Positions 2-10,739 of a stretch of DNA of 64,000 bases are shown here, in pieces. The translations under genes and the position numbers were made by a program. This DNA is from Actinomycetota bacterium (GTDB lineage Bacteria; Actinomycetota; Acidimicrobiia; Acidimicrobiales; RAAP-2). The notes beneath the pieces were generated by a model. It was given only the letters and a program-made list of their open reading frames with translations. It was not told where the DNA came from and made no database searches. The stretch covers positions 1 through 64,000 of the forward strand of contig JAJPJD010000057.1 in assembly GCA_021324355.1 (NCBI GenBank). Direction: 5' to 3'. Each line of letters opens with the position of its first letter. The stretch's first letter is position 1.

Positions 2-601
2 GACCCCGAGCTGGCATCCCGGCTGCGCACCCTGCGCCTCCACGGGATGAGCGCCGATGCCTGGCGCCGCTACGAGGTCGCCGGCAGCTGGCGCTACCGG
101 GTCGATGCGCTCGGCCTCAAGGCCAACTTCACCGACCTGCAGGCGGCGATCGGCCGGGCCCAGCTCCGCTCCCTCGGCGCTTGGCAGGCCCGGCGGGCCG
201 AGCTCGCGGCCCGCTACGACGCCGCCCTGGTCCGGATCCCAGGAGTCCAGGTGCCACCCCGGCCGTTCCGGGCCGTCCACGCCTGGCACCTCTACATCGT
301 CCGCATCCACGAGGAGTTCGGTCGCACCCGAGACGAGGTCATCGACGAGCTGGCCGCCCGGGGGATCGGGACCTCGGTCCACTTCATCCCGGTCCACCAC
401 CACTCGGTCTTCCGCCGGCTGCTCGGTGCCGAGGCGTGCTCGGACCTGCCGGTCGCCGACCGGCTGTTCCCGAGCCTGGTGTCCCTCCCGCTGTACCCGA
501 GCATGTCCGACGACGACGTCGACCGGGTCTGCCAGGCCCTCGACGACCTCCGAACCCGATCCCGCACCGTGAGCACAGGGAGCACCCGTGGAACTCCATG
601 A
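2..601 (+). CDS. DegT/DnrJ/EryC1/StrS-family sugar aminotransferase, C-terminal part
   Basis: This is the C-terminal half of a PLP-dependent nucleotide-sugar aminotransferase; the reading frame is open from base 2, so the true start lies before the window. The visible part begins with the family-typical stretch RLRTLRLHGMSADAWRRY, followed by the GLKANFTDLQAAIGRAQL segment that packs at the dimer interface, and later VHFIPVHHHSVF and LPLYPSMSDDDVDRV near the end, all standard for this family. The PLP-lysine region is outside the window. Such enzymes aminate keto-sugars for surface polysaccharides, which fits the downstream O-antigen ligase, flippase and sugar transferase. Its 3' end overlaps the next gene by 14 bases. 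The family is clear; the exact sugar is unknown. Confidence 0.9.
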   Translation, partial: DPELASRLRTLRLHGMSADAWRRYEVAGSWRYRVDALGLKANFTDLQAAIGRAQLRSLGAWQARRAELAARYDAALVRIPGVQVPPRPFRAVHAWHLYIVRIHEEFGRTRDEVIDELAARGIGTSVHFIPVHHHSVFRRLLGAEACSDLPVADRLFPSLVSLPLYPSMSDDDVDRVCQALDDLRTRSRTVSTGSTRGTP

Positions 602-2048
602 CCTCGACGTCACCGTCTTAGGCCGGGACCTCACCCGCCAGCACGCCGGCGCGGACTTCACCGTCTTCGACAGCGAGCACGCCCCGGCGGACGACCGGCT
701 CATCGAGACGCTCCGCACCGGGACCGAGGACATCGACCTGGCGGCGTCGCCGGTGGTCCTGCCGGACTTCTGCCACAAGGAGAAGTCCGAGATGCCCTCC
801 AGCATCGCGGTCGCCACCAAGGACGCCATCCGGCCCACCCTGACCGACGCCGCCCTCAACTGCGGGATGGCGCTCATCACCTTGGACGTGGAACGCCCGC
901 CCGAGCGCGCCGTCAGCGACTTCTACCGCAAGGTGGTGGAGCGGTTCCCCAACCCGCCCACCTGGCGGCGGGACCTGAAACGTCACGAGGTCCTCCGGGC
1001 GGCGGTGGAGGGAGCGGACTTCGCGGCCGAGCGCTACGACTTGGACCAGGCCGACCTGGACCGGATCGAGGAGCGGGGCCGGATCCCCATCGACGACCTG
1101 GGCGGCGCCCCCCAGGCGATGCGGGACCTGCCCTGGCTGGTGGTCCAGATGAGCCGGCTCCGCTTCGGCTCCATCGGCCCGAGCACCCACTTCCTCGAGA
1201 TGCAGCAGGTGGAAGAGGTCCTCGACCCGGTGGCGGCCGAGCGCCTGGGCATCCACCAGGGCCAGGTGACCATCCAGTTCCACAACGGCGGCGGGGTCCT
1301 CACCGGCCAGCTGGGGGCGCTCTACGCCCGCCGCAAGAGCGCGTCCCGGCTGCTGCGGGCCGAGATGTCGGTGCAGCGGCCGCTCAGCCACCTGGCCACC
1401 GCCCGCTCGATCGGCGACATCAAGCGCCGGCTGGCCATGTTCTTCGCCGAGGGGTGCCCGTCCATCCCCACCGACCATGAGGACGGCCGACGGGCCCTCT
1501 TGGCCACCCGCCTCGCCATGAACTACGGCTTCGCCTACCGGATGGCCACCTACGCCGCGCTCCGGGACATCGCCCGCCAAACCCTGGGGTCGGCCACCCG
1601 GCTGGTGGTCGACTCCCCCCACAACTCCATCTACCAAGAGGAGGTCGACGGCCAGGCCGCGTTCGTCCACCGCCACAACGCCTGCCGCGCGTGGCCGGCC
1701 GAGATGATGGCCGGCCACCCGGCGTTCGCCGAGACCGGCCAGCCCCTGCTCCTGCCGGGGACCAACCGGACGTCGTCCTACCTGTGCCTGCCGGCCGACG
1801 GCGCGCACCGCAGCCTCTACACCGCCTGCCACGGCTCGGGCAGCATCATCTCGGCGTTCGAGCGGACCGGCCGCTCCGGCCCCGACCCGCTGGCCCGGAC
1901 CACCGCCCGCTACCGCTACGACGGGGCGGCGCCCCGTCACGTCGCGCACCTCGACGACAACGGGGTGAACGAGGCGCTGCGGATCCTCACCACCTACGGC
2001 CTGGTCCGGCCGGTCGCCCGGATGCGGCCGTTCGCGGTGCTCACATGA
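588..2048 (+). CDS. Divergent RtcB-like (RNA 3'-phosphate ligase fold) protein
   Basis: A 486-residue protein that follows the order of RtcB motifs: LPDF near residue 58, a NCGM segment (normally D-x-x-C-G) near 92, GSIGPSTHFLE (normally G-x-x-G-x-G-N-H-F-x-E), FHNGGGVLTGQ (normally H-S-G-S-R-G), AMNYGFAYR, SPHNSIYQEE (the H-N-x(4)-E motif), HRHNACRAWP, PGTNRTSSYL (normally P-G-S-M-G-T-x-S-Y) and ACHGSGSI (normally H-G-A-G-R, whose His carries GMP). The metal-ligand Cys and His positions and the guanylation His appear kept, while the Asp before the Cys, the Asn before the His and the Arg after H-G-x-G are changed. In known RtcB these residues bind Mn and GMP for RNA ligation. The GTG start has GGGAG upstream. 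It lies inside a polysaccharide operon with overlaps on both sides, so its substrate may not be RNA; that is inference. Confidence 0.75.
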   Translation: MELHDLDVTVLGRDLTRQHAGADFTVFDSEHAPADDRLIETLRTGTEDIDLAASPVVLPDFCHKEKSEMPSSIAVATKDAIRPTLTDAALNCGMALITLDVERPPERAVSDFYRKVVERFPNPPTWRRDLKRHEVLRAAVEGADFAAERYDLDQADLDRIEERGRIPIDDLGGAPQAMRDLPWLVVQMSRLRFGSIGPSTHFLEMQQVEEVLDPVAAERLGIHQGQVTIQFHNGGGVLTGQLGALYARRKSASRLLRAEMSVQRPLSHLATARSIGDIKRRLAMFFAEGCPSIPTDHEDGRRALLATRLAMNYGFAYRMATYAALRDIARQTLGSATRLVVDSPHNSIYQEEVDGQAAFVHRHNACRAWPAEMMAGHPAFAETGQPLLLPGTNRTSSYLCLPADGAHRSLYTACHGSGSIISAFERTGRSGPDPLARTTARYRYDGAAPRHVAHLDDNGVNEALRILTTYGLVRPVARMRPFAVLT

Positions 2049-2443
2049 AGAGCCTCGCCGCCACCGCCGACACCTGGGCCATCCTGCTGCCCCCCGACAC
2101 CGCCTGGGTCGGGCGCGGCCAGGACGAGCCCGAACGGCCCGATCCCAAGCAGGCTCGACGGGCGGTGGTCGCCTCCCCCTGGGCGCTGCGCCGCCGGGCC
2201 GAGGGGGGTGCCCGGCGGACCTACATCGCCTTCCCGTCGCGCGACCAGCCGCTGTTGGTGACCAGCCACGACCCGGCGGTGCTGCGCTACCTGACCGACT
2301 CGGTCCTGTCCACCCCGCCCGGCGTCGGGGGCCTGTCGGGCCTGGTGATGACGGTGGGCCGGCGGTTCCTGCGGCGCAAGGGCACCTGGCTGCTGGCGGC
2401 GTTGTTCGGGAGCGCCGGCGTGGTGTCGGTGGAGACCCGATGA
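2045..2443 (+). CDS. Small unknown protein in the polysaccharide operon
   Basis: A 132-residue product that I do not recognise. The ATG overlaps the stop of the RtcB-like gene (ATGA), and its own stop overlaps the start of the kinase gene in the same way, which supports translation from 2045 rather than from a longer in-frame opening. The N-terminus (TWAILLPPDTAWVG) and a later YIAFPSRDQPLLVTSHDPAVLRYL stretch look like a compact alpha/beta domain; the C-terminal part is basic (GRRFLRRKGTW) followed by a short hydrophobic run (LLAALFGSAGVVSV) that could touch the membrane. Position between an RtcB-like protein and an APH-fold kinase suggests that the three act together, but no function can be assigned. 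Confidence 0.65.
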   Translation: MKSLAATADTWAILLPPDTAWVGRGQDEPERPDPKQARRAVVASPWALRRRAEGGARRTYIAFPSRDQPLLVTSHDPAVLRYLTDSVLSTPPGVGGLSGLVMTVGRRFLRRKGTWLLAALFGSAGVVSVETR

Positions 2444-3453
2444 CCATCTCGATGGTCACCGGGCGCCGTCCCCTCTACGACCTGGTCGACGACGTCCACG
2501 GCCGGGTGGCCTGCCTGGCGTTGTCCAAGGACCCCAACGCCAAGATCACCGTCTTGTTGTTCCCGCCGGGGTCCGACGCCCCCGGCTTCGTGGCCAAGGT
2601 CCCCACCACCGACACCGCCGCCGCCAGCGTGCGGCTCGAGGCGAGCGCGCTGGCGGCGCTCGATCGGGCACGCCTCGGCCCGCTGGAGGGAACCGTCCCT
2701 CGGGTCACCACCTTGGCCGAGCACCAGGGCCGGCCGGTCCTGGTCACCACCGCGCTGCCCGGCCAGGTGATGCTGGCCAGCTACCACCGCTGGCACCACA
2801 CCGCCCGCCCCGCGGCGGTCGAGGCCGACTTCGAAGCCGCCGGTCGGTGGCTGGCCGAGCTCCACGAACGCACCGCGCGGGGCCACGGCGACCTGTCGCT
2901 GGTGCTCGACGGGGTGGGGGACGCGCTGGTGCGCCGCTACCGCGACGACCCCACCACCGCCAAAGACCTCGAGCTGGTGGCGGCCCTCCAGGCCCGCCTG
3001 GCTGGCCACCAGGCCCCCCGGGGCTTGGTCCACGGCGACTACTGGGTCGGGAACCTGCTGGTAGCCAAGGGCCAGGTATGCGGGGTCATCGACTGGGAGC
3101 GCTGCCAGCCCGACGGCCTGCTCACTCGGGACCTGGCCCGCTTCGTGATCGGCTACTCCCTCTACCTGGACCGCCACACCCGGCCCGGGCGGCGGGTGGC
3201 CGGCCACCACGGCCTGCGGGCCGGCGAGTGGGGGGCCGGGGTGCAGTACGCGCTGGACGGGGAGGGGTGGTACCCCGAGCTCGCCCGGTCCTTCGTGGCC
3301 AAGGGGCTGGAACGCCTCGGTCTTTCGGCCAGCTGCCTGCGCGACGTGGTCCTGGCCGAGATCGCCCGGATCGCGGCCGAGGCCGACCAGGACGACTTCG
3401 CCCGGGGCCACCTGCGGCTGCTGCGCCGCCTGTGCACGCCGGAGGCCGGGTGA
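2440..3453 (+). CDS. APH-fold phosphotransferase
   Basis: A 337-residue small-molecule kinase of the aminoglycoside phosphotransferase/choline kinase superfamily. The catalytic Brenner loop is visible as LVHGDYWVGNLL around residues 192-203 (H-G-D-x(4)-N) and the metal-binding motif as GVIDWERCQPDG just after. The N-lobe holds a FVAKVPTTDTAAASVRLEASAL segment with the usual Lys and Glu. The ATG overlaps the preceding stop (ATGA) and the GTG of the O-antigen ligase overlaps this gene's stop. In a polysaccharide operon it may phosphorylate a sugar, an aminosugar or a lipid-linked intermediate; the substrate cannot be read from sequence. Confidence 0.85.
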   Translation: MTISMVTGRRPLYDLVDDVHGRVACLALSKDPNAKITVLLFPPGSDAPGFVAKVPTTDTAAASVRLEASALAALDRARLGPLEGTVPRVTTLAEHQGRPVLVTTALPGQVMLASYHRWHHTARPAAVEADFEAAGRWLAELHERTARGHGDLSLVLDGVGDALVRRYRDDPTTAKDLELVAALQARLAGHQAPRGLVHGDYWVGNLLVAKGQVCGVIDWERCQPDGLLTRDLARFVIGYSLYLDRHTRPGRRVAGHHGLRAGEWGAGVQYALDGEGWYPELARSFVAKGLERLGLSASCLRDVVLAEIARIAAEADQDDFARGHLRLLRRLCTPEAG

Positions 3454-4790
3454 GCCTGCGCACTCGCCTGGACACCCTGCCGCCGCTCCCCGCCCTCCCG
3501 GCAGGGACCCTCGAGCGGGGGCCGACCTCGGAGCGGGTCCGCAAGACCGAGCGCCGGGCCATGGTGGCGCTCACCGCGGCGTTCATCTTCCAGCCCATCC
3601 TGCACCCGACCGGGCCGGCCAACAGCTCGCCGGTCGACCTTTTGCTCATCGTCTCGGTGGTGCTGTTCGGCATCTGGGCCTGGCGCGAGCCGCGCCGGAT
3701 CCACGCCCCCTACCTGCTGCCGGTGGGCCTCATGGTGGCCGCCGGCGCCGCCTCCGGCATCACCAGCCAGTTCCCGAGCGCCGCCATCCAGGCCCTCCTG
3801 GTCGACGTCTTGTTGTTCGCGTGGTGCACCACCGTCACCAACGTCGTGTCGGAGCCCCGCACCTTTCGCTACGTGCTGTCGGCGTGGGCGCTGTCGGGGA
3901 TCGCGTGGGCCGCGCTCGTGGTGGTGGCCTGGCTCGGTCACATCACCGTGCTGGAGGGGTTGAACGCGGCCGACGGGAACCGGGTGCTGTTCACCTTCGG
4001 CGACCCCAACTACGCCTCCACCTACTGGCTGACCACCCTGTTCGTGATCTACGCGATGCAGCGGCCGGCGACCCGCTGGCTTCGTTTCGCCGGCTACGCG
4101 GTGGTCTTCTGGGCGCTCGTGCTGACCGAGTCCAACGGCGGGTTCCTCTCGCTCGCCATCGGCATCGCGTTCGTGGTGCTGGTCACGATCTACCGCCGCC
4201 GGGGCTGGGCCGGGCTGGTCGCGGCGGTGCTGGTGCTCGGGTTGGCGGTGGCGAGCTTCCTCACCGTCCTCCCGCTCAACACCCTGCGGGAGAAGGCCCT
4301 CTACAGCAACCAGCCGATCCTGGTGAACTCGATCGGCCGCAGCGCCCAGAGCTCCTCGGAGCGCTCCGAGCTCATCTCGGAGATGGGCCAGCTCTACGAC
4401 CAGACCAACGGCCTGCTCGGGATCGGGCCCGACGCCACCAAGCCCACCTTGACCGCCCAGCTGGCGGTGTACCCCAACGAGGCCCACGACGACTACCTGG
4501 CTGCCCTGGTCGAACGGGGCCCGCTGGGGCTGCTGGGCTTGCTGATCCTGGTCGGCTCGGCGGTGCTGTGGGCCGGGCCACTGGTCCGGGGCCGGGTCTC
4601 CCGCCGTTTCGCCGAGGTCATCCCGATCCCCCTCGGGCTGGCCGCCGGCCTGCTCGCGCTGGGCGTCAACTCCTTCTACGAGGAGATCCTCCACTTCCGC
4701 TTCTTGTGGTCGCTCCTCGCGATCGTGGCCGTCGTCGGCCGGGACTCCAAGCAGGCAGGCACCGATGCGCATCTTCGACAGCCAACGTGA
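3450..4790 (+). CDS. O-antigen ligase/polymerase-like membrane protein
   Basis: A 446-residue multi-spanning membrane protein started at the GTG that overlaps the kinase stop (GTGA). About ten to twelve hydrophobic segments are visible, with a long external-type loop around residues 280-350 ending in PNEAHDDYLAALVERGPLGLLG, which matches the Wzy_C/O-antigen ligase signature (H-x-x-Y-L followed by a G-x-x-G-L-L-G helix). Such proteins polymerise or transfer lipid-linked glycan repeats at the outer face of the membrane. The gene precedes the flippase-transferase fusion and overlaps it by 26 bases, so export, polymerisation and chain initiation are encoded side by side. The family is firm; polymerase versus ligase cannot be told. 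Confidence 0.85.
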   Translation: MSLRTRLDTLPPLPALPAGTLERGPTSERVRKTERRAMVALTAAFIFQPILHPTGPANSSPVDLLLIVSVVLFGIWAWREPRRIHAPYLLPVGLMVAAGAASGITSQFPSAAIQALLVDVLLFAWCTTVTNVVSEPRTFRYVLSAWALSGIAWAALVVVAWLGHITVLEGLNAADGNRVLFTFGDPNYASTYWLTTLFVIYAMQRPATRWLRFAGYAVVFWALVLTESNGGFLSLAIGIAFVVLVTIYRRRGWAGLVAAVLVLGLAVASFLTVLPLNTLREKALYSNQPILVNSIGRSAQSSSERSELISEMGQLYDQTNGLLGIGPDATKPTLTAQLAVYPNEAHDDYLAALVERGPLGLLGLLILVGSAVLWAGPLVRGRVSRRFAEVIPIPLGLAAGLLALGVNSFYEEILHFRFLWSLLAIVAVVGRDSKQAGTDAHLRQPT

Positions 4791-6744
4791 GCGACTGCGA
4801 GGGGCCGGCACCGGCATCGTCGCCCGCTCCTCGCTGACCAACCTGGGGGCCCAGGGCGGTGCCCTGGCCTCGGTCACGGTGGCCAGCCTGCTGGTCGCCC
4901 GGTTCGGGGGGCCGACCGTGGTCGGCGAGTACGCCCTGTTCCGGGTCCTGCCGTGGCTGTTCGGGGTGGTCTTCTCGGTCGGCCTCCCGACTGCCTCGGC
5001 CTTCTTCCTGGCTGGCGAGCACGCAGAGGACCGGGATCTGCGCCCCACCCTGATCCTCATGGCGGTCGTGGGCGCGAGCGTGGGGGCGGTGGTCTGGATG
5101 GGGTGCGCCGGGGCGTTCCACGCCCTGTTCTTCCGGCACGTGCCCATGCCGGTGATCATCATCATGGCCCTGTGCGTCATGACCCAGCTGCTCACGGTGA
5201 CCGCCAAGGGCTGCTGCCAGGGGTCCCACGACATCGCCGGGGCCAACCTGGTCATCGTGGCCGAGGAGCTGTGGTTCGTGGTCTGCTTCCCGGCGGTGGT
5301 GATCCTTGGCCACCTCCAGTCGATCGGGGCGGTGGCGGCCGGCCTGATCGGCTCGGGGATGCTGGCCACCGGGACCGGAGTGGTCCGGCTGGTCCGGATC
5401 GGCTTCTTCGACGACCTGGGCCGCCCGTCGGCCGCCCTGGCCCGCCGGATCGCTGCCTTCGGGGGCCGGGGCCAGTTCGGCAACCTGTTGTGGCTGACCA
5501 ACCTGCGCTTCGACTTCATCCTGCTCGGCGCGCTGGCCGGCCCGGCGGTGCTCGGGGTGTACTCGATCGCCTCGAAGTTCGCCGAGCTGATGCGGCTGGC
5601 CCCGACCGCCCTCAACTACGTCTTGTACCCCCGATTCGCCCAGCTGGGCCGGGAGCGGGCGGCCCGGTTCTCCCGGTCGCTGTTCCGAAAGGCCCTCCTG
5701 CTGACGGTGGCCCTCACCCCCCTGGTCGCCCTGGTGGCGCTGTTCGGCCCCCACCTCCTCTACGGCGCCGCCTTCGCCGGCGCGGTCACCCCGGCCGAGA
5801 TCATCATCCTCGGGCTGTCCGTCGAGGGCGCGGCCGCGGTGGCCTCGGCCTACCTCCTGGGCACCGGCCGGCCCGGTCTCAACTCGCTCGGGATGGGGGT
5901 GGGGGCGGTCCTGACCGTCGGCCTCGACGTCGCCCTCATCCCCCACTACGGCGCCCTGGGGGGCGCGATCACCTCGGCCGTGGTCTACGCCACCACCACC
6001 GTCACCCTCTCGCTCATCGCCTCCCGGCTGGCGGCCCGAGACCTGGGGGGGACCCACGCCCGCCTCGAGCGGGCGGTCGTCGGGGCCGACACCGCGCTGC
6101 GCCGGGTGATCGACGTGGTGGTGGCCACCGTCGGGTTGGTGCTGGCCGCCCCGGCCATGGCCGTCATCGCCCTGGCGGTGCGAGCGACCAGCCCCGGCCC
6201 CGCCCTCTACCGCCAGCTCCGGGTGGGCCGCGGCGGCCGGCCGTTCGTGCTGTTCAAGTTCCGCTCGATGGTGGTGGGGGCCGAGCGGCTGGGCGGCTAC
6301 CTCACCCAGCGCGACGACCCCCGGGTCACCACGGTGGGGAGGATCCTGCGGGCGACCAAGCTCGACGAGCTCCCCCAGCTCCTCAACATCGTGCGGGGGG
6401 ACATGACCCTGGTCGGCCCCCGTCCCGAGGTCCCCTACTTCGTCCGCTGGTACCGCCCCGAGGAGCTGGCGGTGCTCTCGGTGCGCCCGGGGCTCACCGG
6501 CTGGGGCCAGATCGTCTACCCCGGCGACCACGTGAACGGACGCGGCGACCGCCCCGAGGTGGAGTCCCACTACCTGGTCCACCAGCTCCACCAGAAGCTG
6601 CTGCTCGACCTCGCCTACCTGCGCCGGCGGGGACTCTGGGCCGACCTGGCCATCATGGCCAAGACCCTGGGCGTCGTCGTGCGCAACGCCCGCCAGGCAC
6701 TGCTCCGGACCCGCGGCGCGCCGCGCTCGGCCCCCGGGCTCTGA
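4765..6744 (+). CDS. Fusion: Wzx/MATE-type flippase plus undecaprenyl-phosphate sugar-1-phosphate transferase
   Basis: A 659-residue two-domain protein. Residues about 1-430 form a twelve-to-fourteen-segment polysaccharide flippase (starts with [20 protein letters not shown]; includes [15 protein letters not shown] and [12 protein letters not shown]). Residues about 448-650 form a complete bacterial sugar transferase (WbaP/WcaJ C-terminal type): one hydrophobic segment, then [62 protein letters not shown] and [10 protein letters not shown], all the usual catalytic blocks. One polypeptide would both prime the lipid carrier and flip the finished repeat unit; separate genes are the norm. No stop or frameshift separates the halves. 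It is the last gene of the operon, and its stop lies 3 bases from the end of the convergent regulator. Confidence 0.9.
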
Positions 6745-6747
6745 TCC

Positions 6748-9699
6748 CTAGGCGCTGCGCCCGGTGACCAGCCGGGTCGGATCCGCCCCTGGACGACCGG
6801 CTGGCGAGGTGAGGCGGCGGAGCTCGTCGCGGGACTGGACCCCGAGCTTCTGGTAGACGCGCGACAGGTGCCCTTCGACCGTCTTGGTGGTGACGAACAG
6901 CAGCTCGGCGATGCGGGCATTGGTCATGCCGGCGGCGGCCAGATCGGCCACCCGCCGCTCCGAGGGGGTGAGCGAGTCGGCCCCCGAGAACGCCAACCGT
7001 CGGGGCCGGGCGCCGCTGGCTCGCAGCTCTCGCAGCGACTGCTCGATCAGCCAGGGGGAACCGCAGCGGACCGCCAGGTCGGCCGCCTGGCGCAGGGCGG
7101 TGCGGGCAGCCACCGGGCGATCGGCCACCCGCAGGGTTCGGCCGAGCTCGAGGGTGGTCCGGGCCAGCTCGAGCGACGGCCCGGCCGGCTGCAGCACGGT
7201 CACCGCCTCGTCCAACAGGGCCAGCCGCTCCACCGGCTCCACCACCTCGGCCATCACCGCCAGCGCGGCGCCGACCACCGCCGGGGCCCCGAAGGCCCGG
7301 GCCAGGCTGAGGTTCTCGCTGGCCAGCTCGTGGGCGTCCCGGGCGCTGCCAAGGGCGGCGCTGGCCCGCGCCGCCCCGGCCCGCCAGCCGGTCACGGCCG
7401 GGTTGCGGACCCCCCACTCCTCGGCCAGCTGGCCGGCCAGGCGGAAGTCGCCCAACGCCGCCTCACCCTCGCCGACCACGGCGTGGACCTCGCCCCGCAG
7501 TTCGAGCGCCCACAGCTCGGCGAGCGACCCAGCGTGCCGGGCCGACCGGCTGGCTCGGTCGAGGAGCTCGGCCGCCTCGGCGGGCTGACCCAACTCCAGG
7601 GCGACACGGGCCGCCACCACCTCGGCCCGGCCGTCGTGGGGCGGCGCCGCCAGCACCGGGCCCAGCGTCGCCTCGGCCTCCCGCAGCTGGCCGGCGGCCA
7701 GCTGGCAGCGGGCGACCACGGTCCCAAACGCGGCCTCGGCGCCGGTCCGTCCCAGCCGTCGGGCGACCTCTTGGGCCGACCGGGCCAGGGGCTCGGCCTG
7801 CGCCCAGGCACCGGCCCGTGCCGCTGCCTCCAGCGCCCGGACGGCGGCGTCGACGGCGGCATCGTCGGCTCCCTCGAGCTCCTCGACCCGGACCGCCCCC
7901 AAGGCGATGGCGGCCAGCTGGGCGGCCGCCATCCGGTCCGGGACGAGCTCCCAGCACGAGCACAGCACGGCCAGGGCGGTGCGCTCCTCCGGGCTGCGCC
8001 CGGCCAGCCGGCCGCCCAGGACCTGCTCGAGCGCCGGCGCGACCTCGAGCACGCCGCGCACCGTCGGGTCGAGCTGGGCCAGGCGCGCCCCCAGCCGGAG
8101 CCGCAGCGCCGGGTCGTCCCCTTGGCCCAGACCGGCCGCCGCCGACCGCAGCACCGCCAGCGCCCCCTCCGGGGCCGCGCCAGCCAGCTGGTGCACGACG
8201 TCGAGCGCCGCCTGGGCGTAGTGCGCCGGCTCGACCGCGGCCTCGGCTGCGTCGCGCAGCCGCCCCAGCGCCTCGGTGGAGCCGGCCGCCGCCTGGTGAC
8301 GAGCCAGGGCGACCAGGATCGAGCCTCGCTGGTCGGCACTCGGTGGCTCGGCCAGCGCCCGCTCGAGTAGCGCCGCCGCCCGCTCGGGATTCCCGGCCGC
8401 GGCAGCCAGCTCGGCCCCCTGGACCAGGCGCTCGGCCCGCCAGGCCTCGCCCAGCGGCTCGCAACGGGTCAGGTGCTCGGCCACCACCGCAGCCGGTGCA
8501 CCGTGGTCGTCGAGCAGTCGGGCCGCCTCCGCATGCAGGGCGGCCCGACTGGCCGGCCCCAAGTCGCCGTAGGCGGCGGCCCGCTCGAGCGGGTACACGA
8601 ACCCCAACGTGCCGTCCCGGGTCACGATGCCGGCCTCGGCCAGGGCGTCGGCTGCCGCCCGGGCGACCTCCAGGTCCATGCCGGCCAGCTCGGCCGCCTC
8701 CCGGATCCCGGCCCGGCCCTCGAGCACCGCTGCCGCCTGCGCCAGGCGGTAGGCACCCTCTGGGAGGCCATAGGTGCGATGCAGCAGGGCCCGCACGACC
8801 TGGGGCGGCACCGCCTGGTCCACGACCGAGGCGGCCCGGGCGGCGTCGGCCGGCCCAGAGGCTCGCAACCAGCTCAGCAGCGCGAATAAGAGGAACGGGT
8901 TGCCGACGGTGGCCCGGTAGCAGGCGGCCGCCAGCTCGGCCACCCCCGGCTCGGCGAACTGCTCGGCCACCAGCTCCCCCACCGCGCCCGCGCTGAGGGG
9001 CTCGAGGACGAAGGTCCGGGTCGCCGGGTCGGCCACCACCCGGTCGACCGCCACGGTGGCCTCGGTGCCCGAGCGCCCGAGGGTGCTCCCGATGAGCCAT
9101 ACCCGGCGGTGCGCCAGGCGACGGGAGAGGTACTCGAACCACTGTGCCGAGGCTGGGTCACACCACTGCAGGTCGTCGATCGCGATGACCAACGGCTGGT
9201 GTTCGGCCAAGAACGCGACCGCCCGGGAGAACTCGTCGAAGACATGCGGCAGGTCGGCATCGCCGGCCGGGGCGGTGCCGGCCAGGACCCCCGAGCCGAG
9301 GGTCTCCAGGCACTCGCGGCGGCGGTCCGGCTCGAGCAGCGCGAGGAGGTGCTCGAAGAGCTGGCGCACCACCGAGAAGGGGTAGGCCGCTTCGAGCTGG
9401 CTGCCCCGGGCGCTGAGCACGGCCAGCCCCTCCTCCCTGGCCAGGTGGCACGCGGCGTTGACCAGCGCGGTCTTGCCCAGGCCGGGCCCACCCTCGATGA
9501 CGATGGGCCCCGGGCGGCTGAGCCCCCGGAAGGTGGCCACCAGCTCGCCGAAGACGCTCTCTCGCTCTCGAAGCCTCGGCCGGCCGGCGCCGTCGGGGCG
9601 GTCGGTGGCCCGGCCGGGCACCGCCGGCGGGGGACGGCGGTCGAACAGTACTGCCGCGCTGGGCTGAACGCCACGTCCCCGATCGCTCGGGCTGGTCAT
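6748..9699 (-). CDS. LAL-type LuxR regulator with ATPase domain
   Basis: A 983-residue regulator. The N-terminal third holds an NTPase with Walker A GGPGLGKTALV and Walker B VIAIDDLQWCDPAS; the middle is a long run of Ala/Leu/Arg-rich helical repeats (TPR-like); the C-terminal 65 residues are a LuxR helix-turn-helix beginning LTPSERRVADLAAAGMTNA and containing TKTVEGHLSRVYQKLGV. This is the MalT/LAL architecture in which a ligand and ATP trigger assembly on DNA. I chose the start at 9699 over the longer opening at 9744 because GGTAGGAG lies 6-8 bases before this ATG. It converges on the polysaccharide operon, with which it may or may not be functionally linked. Confidence 0.9.
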   Translation of the reverse strand: MTSPSDRGRGVQPSAAVLFDRRPPPAVPGRATDRPDGAGRPRLRERESVFGELVATFRGLSRPGPIVIEGGPGLGKTALVNAACHLAREEGLAVLSARGSQLEAAYPFSVVRQLFEHLLALLEPDRRRECLETLGSGVLAGTAPAGDADLPHVFDEFSRAVAFLAEHQPLVIAIDDLQWCDPASAQWFEYLSRRLAHRRVWLIGSTLGRSGTEATVAVDRVVADPATRTFVLEPLSAGAVGELVAEQFAEPGVAELAAACYRATVGNPFLLFALLSWLRASGPADAARAASVVDQAVPPQVVRALLHRTYGLPEGAYRLAQAAAVLEGRAGIREAAELAGMDLEVARAAADALAEAGIVTRDGTLGFVYPLERAAAYGDLGPASRAALHAEAARLLDDHGAPAAVVAEHLTRCEPLGEAWRAERLVQGAELAAAAGNPERAAALLERALAEPPSADQRGSILVALARHQAAAGSTEALGRLRDAAEAAVEPAHYAQAALDVVHQLAGAAPEGALAVLRSAAAGLGQGDDPALRLRLGARLAQLDPTVRGVLEVAPALEQVLGGRLAGRSPEERTALAVLCSCWELVPDRMAAAQLAAIALGAVRVEELEGADDAAVDAAVRALEAAARAGAWAQAEPLARSAQEVARRLGRTGAEAAFGTVVARCQLAAGQLREAEATLGPVLAAPPHDGRAEVVAARVALELGQPAEAAELLDRASRSARHAGSLAELWALELRGEVHAVVGEGEAALGDFRLAGQLAEEWGVRNPAVTGWRAGAARASAALGSARDAHELASENLSLARAFGAPAVVGAALAVMAEVVEPVERLALLDEAVTVLQPAGPSLELARTTLELGRTLRVADRPVAARTALRQAADLAVRCGSPWLIEQSLRELRASGARPRRLAFSGADSLTPSERRVADLAAAGMTNARIAELLFVTTKTVEGHLSRVYQKLGVQSRDELRRLTSPAGRPGADPTRLVTGRSA

Positions 9700-9926
9700 G
9701 CGTGCTCCTACCTTCCGACGAGGTAGCCGACAAGGCACCGCCACCCGTGTCGACCATTGTGCGACGCGACCTTTGCCCGCGCATCATCAAATTTGCGGAA
9801 ATCGGCGGTGGTGGCGGCCGAGATTGCGAGGGTCACCGAGGCAGACCGCCCGGGGCGCGGTGCTCGGGCCGAGGGTCGAGGCTGTGGTGTGACCGGGCGC
9901 TGCCCGAGACGGGCCGGGGCGTGGCG

Positions 9927-10739
9927 TCAGCCGGCGCCCCTCGACGGCCGACCGGCTGGGCTCGCCTCGGTCGGCCACCCGGCCTGGCGCGCCAAGGAGA
10001 CCGCCTGGAGCTGCGAGTTCACGTTGAGCTTCTGGAGGATGGCGCGGATCTGGGTGCGCACGGTGGAGACCGACACCGAGGACTCCAGCGCGATCACGCT
10101 GGCCGGCATCCCCTCGATCAGGCTCCGCAGGACCGCTTGCTCCCGGGGGGTCAGGCGGTCGAACCGGGCCCGTCGGGGCTCCGCGCTGCGGGGGGGCCGC
10201 CACTCGGGCCCCGCCGTCGACGGACGCCGTGGGCGGCGCCGCTCCTGCTCCACCAGGTGGCGGATGGTGGTCGCGATCTCCCGGACCGGCCGGCGCCGAC
10301 TGAGGACCGAGGTGGCCCCGAGGCGAGCCAGCTCGTCGCGCACCGGGCCGGTGAGCCGGCTCACCAGGACCACCACCGGGGCGGCGCCGCGGGCGACCGC
10401 CCGGACCAGCTCCCGGCCCGGCCCGTCCGGCTCGGCCCCGTCGACCAGGACGGCATGGGGCCGCCAACCGAGCACCGCTCGGAGCTGGCCGATCGCCGAC
10501 GGCCAGCTGGCCTTCACCTCGAACCCCTGGTCTCGCAGCGCCGAGGCGAGGTCGCTCCCTCCGGGTGCCGCGATGACCAGGACCTTGGCTGGGGCGGGGC
10601 CGACCGAACGGGTGACCGAGGTCGTGGGGTGGCTGCGGGCGACCACCCGGCCGGCCGCGCCGGCACCTCCACGGGGGCGGGCCCCCGGGGCCTGCGTCGG
10701 GCCGGTCCGACCGGCGTGGTCTGGGTCCAAGTGCACCAT
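9927..10739 (-). CDS. LuxR-type regulator with a receiver-like N-terminal domain
   Basis: A 270-residue protein. After a 45-residue Arg/Pro-rich lead, residues about 50-165 resemble a response-regulator receiver (KVLVIAAPGGSDLASALRD, then HAVLVDGAEPDGPG where the VD could be the phosphorylation site, and VVVLVSRLTGPVRDEL), but the usual paired acidic residues at the first strand are absent, so it may be a pseudo-receiver. The C-terminus is a LuxR HTH: RLTPREQAVLRSLIEGMPA through STVRTQIRAILQKLNVNSQ. No kinase gene is adjacent. It is the next gene upstream of the LAL regulator on the same strand, separated by 227 bases. Confidence 0.8.
   Translation of the reverse strand: MVHLDPDHAGRTGPTQAPGARPRGGAGAAGRVVARSHPTTSVTRSVGPAPAKVLVIAAPGGSDLASALRDQGFEVKASWPSAIGQLRAVLGWRPHAVLVDGAEPDGPGRELVRAVARGAAPVVVLVSRLTGPVRDELARLGATSVLSRRRPVREIATTIRHLVEQERRRPRRPSTAGPEWRPPRSAEPRRARFDRLTPREQAVLRSLIEGMPASVIALESSVSVSTVRTQIRAILQKLNVNSQLQAVSLARQAGWPTEASPAGRPSRGAG

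Follow-up and report, generated by a model that had tools for sequence, protein, structure and literature searches.

An RtcB-fold protein clade of Actinomycetota that belongs to a surface-glycan operon: an RNA-repair fold probably repurposed for glycan making

RtcB is an RNA ligase from bacteria to humans. It transfers GMP onto a histidine and then onto a terminal phosphate, and a hydroxyl displaces the GMP to leave a phosphodiester. At the start of the 64,000-nucleotide stretch of actinobacterial DNA analyzed here (the window), a gene for an RtcB-like protein is embedded among genes for a surface polysaccharide, and the question raised by this locus is what a protein of the RNA ligase fold does in such a place.

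The gene encodes 486 residues from a GTG start that agrees with the starts in the close relatives L018 and L019. It shares 14 nt (588-601) with the DegT gene upstream, an overlap found identically in both of these relatives, and its stop overlaps the next open reading frame by 4 nt (2045-2048), so that the overlaps on both sides reported in a preliminary description of the locus are now measured. The genes concerned, the last of them on a second contig of the same genome, are:

2-601, + strand: DegT/DnrJ/EryC1 aminotransferase, C-terminal 199 aa (Pfam PF01041, E 2.5e-41), cut by the contig end
588-2048, + strand: RtcB-fold protein of a glycan-cluster-specific subfamily, 486 aa (Pfam PF01139, structure model, Foldseek, tree and synteny)
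2045-2443, + strand: small accessory ORF, 132 aa (profile matches; no Pfam match)
2440-3453, + strand: APH-fold small-molecule kinase (Pfam APH, E 3.9e-20), with the HGDxxxxN and DWE motifs intact
3450-4790, + strand: Wzy/O-antigen-ligase family membrane protein (Pfam Wzy_C, E 1e-13, and synteny), its start at 3450 placed by the stop-start overlap with the APH gene
4765-6744, + strand: fusion of a Wzx-type flippase (Polysacc_synt, E 8.9e-9) and an initiating phosphoglycosyltransferase (Bac_transf, E 2e-57)
1730-2722 of contig C56 (locus L108), - strand: HprK/PEPCK-fold protein with a Walker A motif and SDN

The window starts at the end of contig C54, and the missing upstream piece is C56 (3095 bases), which carries the end of a WbpM-like dehydratase gene, the HprK-like gene, a GT4 glycosyltransferase gene and the N-terminal part of the DegT gene in the order seen in relatives. 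The Wzx and phosphoglycosyltransferase parts that are fused in the window are separate genes in several relatives (e.g. L025, L028 and L060). Directly downstream on the opposite strand are a large AAA_16/LuxR regulator (6748-9744, - strand) and a smaller LuxR-family regulator (9927-10739, - strand); L018 and L019 have similar regulators in this position, so a role in regulating the cluster is possible.

The protein has the RtcB fold and belongs to a separate clade found in actinobacteria. The Pfam RtcB profile covers residues 56-484 and scores 143 bits, where the cut-off is 27 (E 1.8e-41), and the best PDB sequence match is P. horikoshii RtcB (E 1e-31). An AlphaFold2 model based on a 29-sequence alignment (mean pLDDT 84, pTM 0.87) yields 16 Foldseek matches in the PDB with E < 0.001, each of them an RtcB or RTCB, the best being 4dwq (E 3.5e-29, TM about 0.70). 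Profile search and structure comparison thus agree with the RtcB fold first proposed from the letters of the sequence, and the structure model lacking this fold that had been named as contrary evidence did not materialize. Chance resemblance is excluded because of these E-values and because the family of 17 members has most of its changed residues conserved. The fold is shared over the whole length with the RtcB RNA ligases (E. coli RtcB, P. horikoshii PH1602 and human RTCB), from which the RtcB-like protein differs in its glycan-operon context and in being only 18-28% identical to the aligned canonical sequences. Another RtcB paralogue family, RtcB2 or PrfH-associated RtcB, gives weak and partial matches that fall far short of the curated scores (NF007153, 68.5 bits against 407; TIGR03073, 43.9 against 271.8), and, unlike that family, the RtcB-like loci have no release-factor-like neighbor among their annotated genes and lie in a glycan context.

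Relatives at 66-81% identity are found in eleven species contigs, all of Actinomycetota, with Streptomyces, Amycolatopsis, Pseudonocardia and Streptacidiphilus as cultured hosts together with uncultured members of the phylum. The genome-wide scan for relatives employed exact peptide patterns, by which deep relatives could be missed; whole-genome searches added three deeper members (L058, L059 and L060) at 50-58% identity and two further members from Streptomycetaceae. A tree of 64 proteins has a branch with 100/100 support that parts the 17 RtcB-like members from the 47 canonical RtcBs, with mixing in none of 200 bootstrap trees. The branch separate from true RtcB that was foreseen in the preliminary description is thereby established, although the stem, at more than 4 substitutions per site, is too long for the clade's attachment point to be placed with certainty. 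The distribution is patchy and sharply bounded: the gene occurs in 4 of 298 Streptomycetaceae genomes and in 4 of the 396 genomes of a phylum sample, where the four score at least 619 bits and all others at most 82. A scan of viral contigs with the RtcB-like protein gave no relative, and a plasmid search gave matches of canonical level only, at 23-29% identity. Within the clade 45.9% of the columns of the window protein are identical in at least 15 of 17 members. When other loci are compared with L018, the RtcB-like protein outranks the other operon proteins in conservation in five of six cases; in the sixth, L058, WbpM and DegT rank slightly above it.

Genes of the RtcB-like clade belong to the core of one particular type of Wzx/Wzy operon for surface glycan. 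All 17 loci are polysaccharide clusters of this type in which an APH gene and flippase and/or polymerase genes accompany the RtcB-like gene, mostly in one order: chain-length protein, WbpM-like dehydratase, HprK-like protein, GT4 glycosyltransferase, (DegT), RtcB-like protein, accessory protein/APH kinase, Wzy, Wzx, (formyltransferase, PIG-L deacetylase) and phosphoglycosyltransferase. The window itself holds the phosphoglycosyltransferase, Wzx and Wzy, and a chain-length-type protein is present in the siblings L018 and L019, this last assignment drawing on weak NCBIfam support from L025 only. The neighbor survey bears out the earlier view of a surface-glycan operon, and an ordinary RtcB in scattered contexts, the finding that had been said to count against it, is ruled out by the tree, the residues and the synteny. 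A dehydratase, an aminotransferase and, in several loci, a formyltransferase are encoded, and by their family names they point to a probable 4-amino- or 4-formamido-4,6-dideoxy sugar.

Two kinase-like proteins are members of the operon. The APH motifs HGDxxxxN and DWE are intact in all 16 readable loci; the APH gene of L060 (5407-6435, - strand) holds a run of N, and its catalytic motif is unreadable. The small ORF at 2045-2443 is related by profile matches to unnamed proteins of 230-245 aa that adjoin deep members, and its homologues have no Pfam match at E up to 5. This small family accompanies the APH kinase, as a separate protein of 230-245 aa in L060 (6432-7169, - strand) and L058 (7190-7888, - strand) and as an ORF of 132-137 aa in the clade of the window; elsewhere the APH protein is extended at its N-terminus, perhaps by a member of this family, and by eye, as an impression only, the family resembles a degenerate methyltransferase-like domain. 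The second kinase-like member, the HprK-like protein, has the PEPCK/HprK fold according to Foldseek with a moderate model. Seven of eight members match the families of HprK-related kinases A and B and ScmC (TIGR04352, TIGR04355 and TIGR04249) weakly (best E 2e-5, below all curated cut-offs), and we know of no description of the three families together with an RtcB-like gene. The RtcB-like and HprK-like genes occur in the same 4 of 298 Streptomycetaceae genomes, and both HprK-like carriers of the 396-genome sample also carry the RtcB-like gene; in the sampled genomes the HprK-like protein is confined to RtcB-like clusters. The HprK-like gene was not detected in the deep members G111 and G123, whose genomes are 82% and 62% complete.

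What chemistry might be retained can be judged from the active site. In human RTCB metal A is held by H259, H353 and C122 and metal B by D119, C122 and H227, with GMP contacted by N226, E230, S409, K504 and H428 (PMC8668186); D119 is described as a metal-B ligand in both structural and mutational work (PMC8668186, PMC10944509). Each of five single metal-ligand mutants of the human enzyme, D119A included, loses ligation, and the guanylylation that remains in D119A, H227A and H259A is only weak (PMC10944509). The corresponding positions of the window are:

765-767, + strand: D60, E. coli D48, kept in 17/17
852-854, + strand: A89 in place of the metal-B Asp (E. coli D75, human D119), Ala or Ser in 17/17
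861-863, + strand: C92, E. coli C78 and human C122, bridging both metals, kept in 17/17
1185-1190, + strand: T200-H201, where Thr replaces the Asn in contact with the GMP phosphate (E. coli N167, human N226) and the next residue, the metal-B His (E. coli H168, human H227), is kept
1281-1295, + strand: H232-G236, in which H232 is kept and corresponds to E. coli H185 and human H259, a His of metal A; HSGSRG has lost its Arg (E. coli R189), which is Gly in 17/17
1620-1622, + strand: H345, E. coli H281 and human H353, metal A, kept in 17/17
1830-1844, + strand: H415-S419, in which H415 is kept and corresponds to E. coli H337 and human H428, the His that is guanylylated; in this HGSGS motif E. coli R341 is Ser/Thr
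2043-2045, + strand: T486, which ends the protein where RtcB has the Lys in contact with guanine (E. coli K407, human K504); no final Gly follows it

In E. coli numbers, C78, H168, H185, H281, H337, E171, S320, D48 and R298 are kept in all 17 members and N282 in 15, and E287 is also shared with RtcB; D75, R189, K299, R341, Y380 and K407, present in all 47 canonical enzymes, are lost in all 17. Of what characterizes an RtcB RNA ligase, the guanylylated His and the metal-A ligands (Cys and two His) are thus found throughout; the metal-B set retains Cys78 and His168 and has Asp75 replaced, and R189, K299, R341 and K407 are gone, as is N167 in 14 of 17. The clade is therefore RtcB by fold and ancestry and not by the tested defining features of an RNA ligase. 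The metal- and GMP-binding His and Cys positions noted as kept in the preliminary description are kept in the full alignment, and the replacements ALNC for DxxC (A89-C92) and HGSGS for HGAGR are present there; THFLE (T200-E204) in place of NHF.E holds for the window protein and is not universal, the Asn equivalent to human N226 being Thr in 14 of 17 and retained in the three deepest members. Losses that were not on the earlier list are the C-terminal K-G (Thr, Ser or Asn at the K504 equivalent across the 17 members, with the terminal Gly replaced or absent) and R189, K299 and Y380. Y380 and K407 are presumed residues of the guanine pocket, and the roles of R189, K299, R341 and Y380 are putative assignments from conservation rather than from mutants. 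Canonical RtcB has 62 invariant columns; in the clade 31 of them keep their residue and 31 change, and 16 of the changed ones are conserved for the new residue in at least 15 of 17; R192, R394, D456-D457 and others are new invariant and charged residues of the clade. Since most of the replacing residues are themselves conserved, the pattern looks like that of a re-specialized enzyme with a new function rather than that of decay.

Several explanations have to be weighed against these features. Because the active site is changed, ordinary RNA ligation by the clade is very unlikely. The view that this is an RNA ligase or an enzyme of RNA repair, present in the operon as a bystander, has in its favor the fold itself, a PF01139 model that is named for tRNA-splicing ligase, and a genome that, like four related ones (G447, G448, G450 and G452), has no canonical RtcB according to genome searches. 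This is nevertheless a highly improbable reading, since residues invariant in canonical enzymes are lost, a single metal-B mutation suffices to abolish ligation by human RTCB (PMC10944509), every member is in a glycan cluster, and 9 of the 14 other carrier genomes have a true full-length RtcB (at least 365 bits) besides, with canonical fragments in G123. Searches for Archease found none in the window's own genome and found it in 3 of 14 carrier genomes, each time on the contig of the canonical RtcB; Archease is the activator of RtcB. Chance neighborhood or a decaying paralogue without function would agree with the patchy spread, but is more improbable still in view of the same kind of operon at every locus, the same flanking overlaps in the closest relatives, and a conservation that is the highest of the operon. 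We therefore regard it as very probable that the RtcB-like protein is dedicated to glycan synthesis and is not an RNA ligase, and its being an active metal/histidine enzyme, to judge from the retained residues, as probable.

The reading that we tentatively favor, at somewhat less than even odds, is of a phospho- or nucleotidyl-transferase that depends on metal and His and takes a phosphorylated glycan intermediate as its substrate. The APH-fold kinase, and likewise the HprK/PEPCK-fold kinase present in most clusters, would phosphorylate a hydroxyl, either of a glycan precursor or of a small substituent; the conserved His of the RtcB-like protein would then serve to activate the phosphomonoester so formed, in a nucleotidyl transfer like the one that RtcB performs on an RNA 3'-phosphate, and the activated group would pass to a hydroxyl acceptor to give a phosphodiester or a nucleotide-activated donor. 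Some mechanism of the RtcB type fits because the His and metal-A ligands are kept and one or two kinases adjoin. The specific chain from kinase to RtcB-like activation and transfer is a possibility that we hold with some reserve, its order being suggested by gene adjacency only, and a His-nucleotide intermediate by which the phosphomonoester is joined to a hydroxyl in a phosphodiester-bearing surface polysaccharide is equally conjectural; we know of no phosphodiester-linked glycan from the carrier organisms. With the guanine contact and the metal-B Asp lost, the nucleotide and the exact steps must differ from those of RtcB or be fewer; the nucleotide used may be other than GTP, and guanylylation could, on the loss of the metal-B Asp, the guanine-contacting Lys and Y380, be gone altogether. 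Hence two rivals are serious, each of them unlikely yet far from negligible. The protein might be a hydrolase, a cyclic phosphodiesterase or phosphatase that relies on metal A and the conserved His, has a phosphorylated glycan or a nucleotide-sugar intermediate as its substrate, and retains only the first activity of RtcB, the opening of a 2',3'-cyclic phosphate. The survival of C92, H232, H345 and H415 alongside the loss of the metal-B Asp and of the basic residues R189, K299 and R341, and the two kinases nearby, would suit such an enzyme; the GMP-accepting His, E171 and S320, kept in every member, argue for more than hydrolysis. It might alternatively be a non-catalytic regulator or scaffold that has nucleotide or metal as its ligand and exerts control over the kinases or the polymerization machinery, for which speak the absence of the RtcB-invariant D75, R189, K299, R341 and K407 and the fact that HprK-fold proteins elsewhere include regulatory kinases. 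The invariance of the remaining metal ligands and of His415, in a protein that is the best conserved of its operon in most comparisons, weighs against it, and because the metal ligands and catalytic His are conserved, a pure sensor role also appears less likely.

The proposed transferase has a parallel in the addition of phosphocholine, where the APH-fold kinase LicA is followed by LicC and LicD. In both schemes a kinase of the APH fold comes first and the phosphorylated group is then activated and moved to a glycan; in the one proposed here the RtcB-like protein would fill both the LicC and the LicD step. No cytidylyltransferase or LicD family match was found among the annotated genes. As to RtcB itself, the preliminary description knew of no role in glycan assembly, and our search of the open literature, with most subscription journals outside its coverage, likewise found none.

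It thus appears that an RNA-repair fold has probably been repurposed for glycan making, and annotation based on Pfam, which would call the members of this clade RNA ligases, is probably wrong. This can be tested in a well-defined system, since the cluster is conserved, Streptomyces hosts are available in culture, and the residues that differ from RtcB are precisely listed. If the proposal is true, this would be the first RtcB-family enzyme known to us that acts on a substrate other than nucleic acid, and the covalent-catalysis center kept in a polysaccharide operon would mean that the chemistry of RtcB has moved to a new class of substrate.
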